Below are positions 12,385 through 24,910 of a stretch of 41,774 nucleotides of DNA, piece after piece. Source of the DNA: Bacteroidales bacterium (GTDB taxonomy: Bacteria; Bacteroidota; Bacteroidia; Bacteroidales; F082); contig JAGBQJ010000020.1 of assembly GCA_017632935.1 (NCBI GenBank), forward strand, positions 1-41,774. Reading direction: 5' to 3'. The notes under the pieces are model-generated. The model did no database searches. It saw only the letters and a program-made list of their open reading frames with translations, and was not told the DNA's origin. Each line of letters opens with the position of its first letter. The stretch's first letter is position 1. Both the position numbers and the translations under genes were made by a program.

Positions 12385-12403
12385 TGCTACAATTTCTTTT
12401 TTC

Positions 12404-12529
12404 ACAAAACCTGCAAAACCCTCAAAACAGTTTTCAATGGAAAGTCGCCAACCGGCTCCTTTCCGGCGGCGACGCGGTTGCGCACCGCCGCACAAACAAA
12501 AGGAGTTTCGCCTGTTTTGTGGGTTTTGT
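12404..12529 (-). repeat. Copy A of a two-hairpin element with terminal inverted repeats
   Basis: ACAAAACCTGCAAAAC (12404-12419) and GTTTTGTGGGTTTTGT (12514-12529) are terminal inverted repeats matching at 14 of 16 positions. Inside, GGAAAG/CTTTCC (12439-12444, 12459-12464) and GGCGG/CCGCC (12465-12469, 12485-12489) form two adjacent hairpins. The inverse of this element occurs at 24770-24900. In both places it lies between two co-directional genes and has the same orientation relative to transcription. It fills the cutC-mannosidase gap. Confidence 0.7.
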
Positions 12530-12535
12530 AATGAA

Positions 12536-24764: not shown

Positions 24765-24769
24765 TAATC

Positions 24770-24900
24770 ACAAAACACGCAAAACAATGCAAAACAATCA
24801 AGCAATTATAAGGTGTGGCGGCTGGCACAACCGTGCTGCCGCCGGAAAGCCGCCGGTTGGCAGGCTTTCCCAACCCTAAATAAGGTTTTGAAGGTTTTGT
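24770..24900 (+). repeat. Copy B of the two-hairpin element with terminal inverted repeats
   Basis: ACAAAACACGCAAAAC (24770-24785) and GTTTTGAAGGTTTTGT (24885-24900) are terminal inverted repeats. Hairpin I: GGCGGC (24817-24822) with GCCGCC (24838-24843), inner GCAC/GTGC, loop AACC (24829-24832). Hairpin II: GGAAAGCC (24844-24851) with GGCTTTCC (24863-24870), inner GCC/GGC, loop GGTT (24855-24858). It resembles copy A (12404-12529) in the core and both ends. It fills the DUF5683-dapB gap and stops 10 bp before the dapB ATG. Confidence 0.7.
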
Positions 24901-24910
24901 TCCAAAAAAT

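Follow-up and report, generated by a model that had tools for sequence, protein, structure and literature searches.

The window, a stretch of 41,774 nucleotides from the Bacteroidales genome referred to here as G000, contains two copies of a short element, each located in the gap between a pair of co-directional genes (Table 1). Copy A separates a CutC-family gene from a glycoside hydrolase family 2 gene and copy B separates a DUF5683 gene from dapB. An earlier note on this DNA had described the two as look-alikes sharing terminal inverted repeats, which was confirmed by their boxes, by two hairpins having complementary loops, and by the existence of further copies. The terminal repeats of both consist of iterated CAAAAC boxes with a spacing of 9-10 bp. 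In window coordinates, copy A has three CAAAAC boxes within 12405-12428 and two facing GTTTTG boxes within 12514-12528, while the three CAAAAC boxes of copy B are within 24771-24795 and its two facing GTTTTG boxes are within 24885-24899. Both copies follow a common plan in which TCACAAAAC is outermost and is succeeded by two to three CAAAAC boxes at this spacing, then by a variable segment, hairpin 1 (AACC loop), hairpin 2 (GGTT loop), a second variable segment, and finally the GTTTTG boxes. As RNA, A and B each fold better than all 200 of their dinucleotide shuffles (z = -4.93 and -4.23, respectively). At gathering scores, Rfam models matched only 5S rRNA and one tRNA in the window, with no match at the element.

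Table 1. Positions of the two element copies, their parts, and their neighboring genes in the window
Feature	Position	Strand	Basis
Copy A of the element	12402-12531	-	sequence; covariance-model match
Copy A neighbors: CutC-family gene; glycoside hydrolase family 2 gene	stop codon 12536-12538; start 12384	-	Pfam
Copy A first terminal inverted repeat, two CAAAAC boxes	12514-12531	-	sequence; one-mismatch pattern match
Copy A hairpin 1, loop AACC	12465-12489	-	fold; covariation (67 copies)
Copy A hairpin 2, loop GGTT	12439-12464	-	fold; covariation (67 copies)
Copy A second terminal inverted repeat, three boxes	12402-12428	-	sequence; pattern match
Copy B of the element	24768-24902	+	sequence; covariance-model match; orthologous sites without element
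Copy B neighbors: DUF5683 gene; dapB	stop codon 24762-24764; start 24911		Pfam
Copy B first terminal inverted repeat, three CAAAAC boxes	24768-24795	+	sequence; pattern match
Copy B hairpin 1, loop AACC	24817-24843	+	fold; covariation (67 copies)
Copy B hairpin 2, loop GGTT	24844-24870	+	fold; covariation (67 copies)
Copy B second terminal inverted repeat, two GTTTTG boxes	24885-24900	+	sequence

The hairpins are conserved throughout an alignment of 67 copies, which comprises 69 non-redundant sequences minus two short ones. Among these, 94.9% of the cells pair, and two-sided changes were found in 15 pairs, as compared with 8.1 (sd 1.6) in shuffles; 0 of 500 shuffles reached 15, and slid versions of the structure gave 5-9 such pairs. 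Both hairpins contribute to the covariation (7 of 10 pairs in hairpin 1 and 6 of 11 in hairpin 2), and the boxes are nearly invariant. In almost every copy the AACC loop is complementary to the GGTT loop, which mostly reflects sequence conservation, and a loop-loop pairing is possible and weakly supported. It should be considered unproven because the one loop-loop pair having two-sided changes, in 3 of the 67 copies, is nevertheless broken in 5 of the 67. A further copy in the window genome (L003 1424-1593, on C35) has an additional small hairpin within the loop of hairpin 2.

The window genome (2.86 Mb, 92% complete) contains five copies of the element, comprising the two in the window plus those in C34, C35, and C26. 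A BLAST search with copy B yielded matches in 17 of 36 genomes of the genus, including G000, and outside of the family it yielded a 19-bp match in 1 of 24 genomes from other families. The earlier note had proposed a covariance-model search of this genome and its relatives. When performed with a model of the 67 copies and with scoring limited to 91 candidates per genome, this search likewise matched 17 of the 36 genus genomes, with zero matches at E <= 0.001 in the other 19. Each carrier genome exhibited 5 to 65 model matches (10 in G000), counted on both strands; these outnumber the copies because the quasi-palindromic element is matched on both strands. Among 84,980 species genomes, the exact core pattern was present in 57 stretches, of which 55 are titled Bacteroidia or Bacteroidales, one is titled 'bacterium F082', and one is from Streptomyces, which is taken as a chance match. 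The titles of several of these stretches mention rumen, reticulum, or abomasum, and the exact core pattern was absent from viral contigs. The dispersed, non-coding family suspected in the earlier note is therefore supported, and its members are structured, mostly intergenic, and bounded by terminal inverted repeats. Copies inside one genome have diverged from each other, and thus they do not demonstrate a recent jump.

To describe the placement of the family, we used 105 of 175 profile hits, as the others were duplicates, were near a locus end, or had unrecognized ends. The 105 placed copies are not independent because the same site in different species is included. According to crude ORF calls, 71 are located between co-directional genes, 13 between convergent genes, and 11 between divergent genes, while the rest have one side unresolved. 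Copies A and B share the same orientation relative to transcription, as had been claimed originally, but this does not extend to the family, since the co-directional placements are divided 44 to 27 between the two orientations. A stop codon is found 0-12 nt away in 59 of the 71 co-directional placements (38 of 44 in one orientation and 21 of 27 in the other), whereas uniform insertion in the co-directional gaps of G033 would be expected to yield 13%. Direct repeats of 2-8 nt are not in excess at the ends of the 105 copies, and no target duplication, which the earlier note had suggested looking for, was seen. Of the empty sites that it had also suggested, three are at the orthologous junctions referred to as dapB, site A, and menA-like (the last name is presumptive and reflects our own reading of the sequences). 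At the dapB junction, the element is present in G000, G012, and G030, while stop and start are separated by 2-6 nt in eight carriers lacking it there (G002, G007, G016, G021, G024, G028, G031, and G033). This comparison is patchy, as the pattern used for the start gave no match in G003, G030, G033, G014, G010, and G008, the neighbors in G018 and G029 are different, and the spacer in G022 is long and unrelated. The dapB gene itself is matched as two separate pieces in G019 (C54), and G021 (C7) has an additional partial dapB match. Site A in G033 is a single nucleotide without the element, and the menA-like junction without the element is a stop/start overlap in G000 and G030 and five nucleotides in G033. 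Thus, all three of these empty sites are very tight, ranging from an overlap to 6 nt. Other junctions that are empty in G033 are wider, at about 20, 51, 65 (of doubtful homology), and 122 nt, which argues against a strict rule, and two of them hold another palindromic repeat. At the L094/L095 and L045 sites (C12 of G033), a palindromic repeat of the CTTCGACAGGCTCAG type fills the slot behind the stop codon where the element is absent, which would fit a sharing of slots among several repeat families.

The ends of the short element are not confined to non-coding copies. In G024, two such ends lie farther apart (C35:18169-18810) and enclose a GxxExxY gene. A PF13366 profile search of the 36 genus genomes returned 52 full-length hits, and we inspected the loci of 50 of these plus one partial hit. 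In six of the 50 full-length loci, triple CAAAAC boxes on one flank are combined with GTTTTG boxes on the opposite flank and a CCGGTTGG or CCAGTTGG hairpin, with one such gene each in G002, G003, G007, G012, G021, and G024. Accordingly, six genomes contain a GxxExxY-coding element that has the ends of the short element. This long form is 640-660 bp in total and is arranged as end, hairpin 1, further small hairpins, gene, hairpin 2, and end. The six encoded proteins are 78-93% identical to that of G002, the nearest other protein being 49% identical, and the G024 gene has an apparent frameshift near its start. All six long forms reside at only two junctions, the menA-like junction in four genomes and a second junction in two, and the menA-like junction in G007, G012, and G019 contains an element with its reading frame largely deleted. 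A box-flanked GxxExxY gene was not detected in 11 of the 17 carrier genomes, including G018 (97% complete), G022 (98%), G031 (96%), and G033 (99%).

The long-form protein belongs to the GxxExxY/PDDEXK_3 family, scoring 129.2 bits against a cut-off of 35 for TIGR04256 and 123.5 against 22 for PF13366. No sequence relative was found among solved structures, and an AlphaFold2 model (mean pLDDT 88.1) was used for structure comparison. Its best match was SSO0001 (E 4e-4, TM 0.52), a solved PD-(D/E)XK-type structure that we take to be a Cas4 protein, and lambda exonuclease was a further match (E 4.5e-3, TM 0.47). Residues D71, E81, and K83 are invariant among 8 aligned sequences. Both the modeled fold and the invariant D, E, and K match the PD-(D/E)XK nuclease superfamily, and the protein is a predicted nuclease. 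Of 80 genomes sampled from the phylum, 38 had GxxExxY proteins. No PD-(D/E)XK protein of this kind is known to act alone as a transposase, and in the open-licence literature we found no paper linking GxxExxY, PDDEXK_3, or TIGR04256 to such elements, with GxxExxY mentioned just in passing.

A second short family, which constitutes an independent case, was encountered at the menA junction of G018, G029, and G031, which contains a different insert having AAATC-type boxes. The same stop-start junction (menA-like; L298, L299, L311, and G031:C49) can therefore be seen with either a CAAAAC element or an AAATC-type element depending upon the species, and in G022 it exhibits a weak match to the AAATC-type element. 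Using L299:1356-1494 as the query, the AAATC-type family was matched in 15 of 20 genomes searched, with the highest numbers in G024 (25), G018 (17), and G029 (14) and single short pieces in G000 and G017. For 12 of 21 placed copies, the upstream gene has its stop codon no more than 11 nt from the approximate end of the element or just inside that end. AAATC-type ends also occur on both sides of two GxxExxY genes of a second subfamily (G024:C29:9861-10175 and G018:C6:98713-99027). Beside the GxxExxY gene in G018 (C6:98509-98598; L260), one of the AAATC-type ends is present in three tandem repeats.

We also examined the flanks of GxxExxY genes at large, with one of the 50 genus loci dropped due to a short flank. 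Flank inverted repeats exceeded the 95th percentile determined from 118 control genes for 42 of the 49 genus genes, or 36 of 43 when the six long forms were excluded, and iterated boxes of strict periodicity occurred on both sides of 15 of the 49 genes versus 0 of the 118 controls. Elsewhere in the phylum, 30 loci were examined, each from a different genome, of which 23 exceeded the same inverted-repeat threshold and 2 exhibited strict periodicity on both sides, although the controls all derive from one genome, which is not that of these 30 loci, and include outliers up to 47. Further box types were observed around GxxExxY genes, including GAATT-type arrays (L263, L265, and L240) and ACAGATT- or ACGAATT-type arrays (L231, L229, L245, L217, and L225), with the upstream stop and downstream start situated directly outside of the latter arrays in L217 and L231. 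A scan of 776 kb of G033 plus the window found no inverted pairs of two other box types, and thus a multi-copy state of these was not seen in G033 or the window.

From the sequence comparisons, the linkage between the short element and the GxxExxY gene is evident, and we consider it probable that the short element is non-autonomous and is mobilized, now or formerly, by the GxxExxY nuclease. The short non-coding and long GxxExxY-coding forms would then be members of one mobile element pair. The GxxExxY protein may recognize the box arrays and/or the hairpins, while the AACC and GGTT loops could pair to join both ends in a single-stranded form, and the protein would help to copy or move short and long forms into gene junctions. 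The short form would be a deletion-type derivative amplified in trans, and later loss or decay of the source gene in many genomes would leave relic copies that are inherited with the site. This reading draws upon the six long forms, the reading-frame deletions at the menA-like junction, the second short family with GxxExxY genes of its own, the flank inverted repeats, and the nuclease-like fold. Counting against it are the 11 carriers in which a box-flanked gene was not detected, the divergence of copies inside one genome, the apparent frameshift in G024, the low number of loci outside of the genus with strict periodicity, the single-genome control set, and the weakness of the loop-loop covariation.

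It is also conceivable, albeit unlikely, that the GxxExxY gene is a passenger and that both forms are moved in trans by some other enzyme, such as a Y1/RAYT or DDE transposase. Y1 transposases are certainly common in the genus, being present in 28 of the 36 genomes (88 PF01797 loci), and many carriers are devoid of a box-flanked GxxExxY gene. However, CAAAAC/GTTTTG arrays with 9-10-bp spacing were found at 0 of the 38 Y1 loci inspected out of these 88, the second GxxExxY subfamily is matched by a short family of its own, and a systematic search covering four genomes revealed no other gene enclosed by the ends. On the basis of these 38 loci, a RAYT is not supported as the cognate partner, and the RAYT/IS200-like transposase anticipated in the earlier note was not borne out, with a GxxExxY gene found instead. 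We deem it still less probable that the element is, whatever its origin, a domesticated intercistronic RNA whose hairpins tune mRNA stability or the expression of the second gene. Both orientations are found, as are convergent and divergent placements, and the neighboring genes are unrelated and the sites often empty in relatives, all of which speak against such a role, even though it would suit the placement after one gene's stop codon and before the start of another, the covarying hairpins, and the retention of sites in several species, such as dapB in G000, G012, and G030. Lastly, a chance resemblance among low-complexity CAAAAC runs is refuted, despite the less clean behavior of the bare one-mismatch box pattern in G000 (6+5 matches versus 4+4 in the reversed control), as the 67 copies align full-length through both hairpins, their covariation exceeds that of every shuffle, and 19 genus genomes are matchless.

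Mobilization by the GxxExxY nuclease may even have a broader scope. We tentatively propose that GxxExxY proteins could be the mobilizing nucleases of phylum-wide small insertion elements lacking a classical transposase, with each subfamily having its own arrays of boxes spaced about one helical turn apart, stop-start insertion without target duplication, and its own miniature family. The association of two GxxExxY subfamilies with matching dispersed miniature elements provides a testable role for this protein family, and if GxxExxY does mobilize DNA, it would constitute a REPIN-like system based upon a PD-(D/E)XK nuclease. A stop-codon-adjacent preference would account for spread through operons without breaking genes. 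The pairing of the short element with a GxxExxY-coding long form suggests a little-known kind of bacterial mobile DNA.

Several known systems share some of these features. Like the rRNA intervening sequences exemplified by the Coxiella 23S IVS (PMC4990558), the element is a compact, structured selfish insertion, the long form of which has a small ORF, but it differs in its location between protein genes, its many copies, and its protein family. Of the three identities initially suggested (MITE, REP/RAYT, or regulatory RNA), a dispersed MITE/REPIN-like family is retained, a RAYT partner is not supported by the 38 Y1 loci inspected, and a purely regulatory RNA is improbable but conceivable, the orientation of the element not being fixed. 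Like MITEs, the element occurs as short non-coding dispersed copies with terminal inverted repeats. MITEs and the TIR-flanked RAYT genes ('TIRtrons', PMC3733652), which encode tyrosine transposases, likewise have terminal inverted repeats, internal deletion derivatives, and insertion beside coding sequences; unlike these, the element has no target duplication and no DDE or Y1 transposase was found with its ends. REPINs, as described by Bertels and Rainey (2011, PMC3116915), are short non-coding inverted doublets that form hairpins and occur in many copies, whereas RAYTs are single-copy. The element similarly consists of two inverted palindromic hairpin units, such that it is quasi-palindromic and matched on both strands. 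No GTAG (or CGTC) tag terminates the palindromes in its aligned consensus, its ends are CAAAAC box arrays rather than GTAG-tagged palindromes, many genomes are without the partner, and that partner is a PD-(D/E)XK-type GxxExxY protein instead of a Y1 tyrosine transposase. Even so, the REPIN/RAYT system resembles it in that short hairpin doublets are accompanied in each genome by one distinct coding partner that has the same ends.
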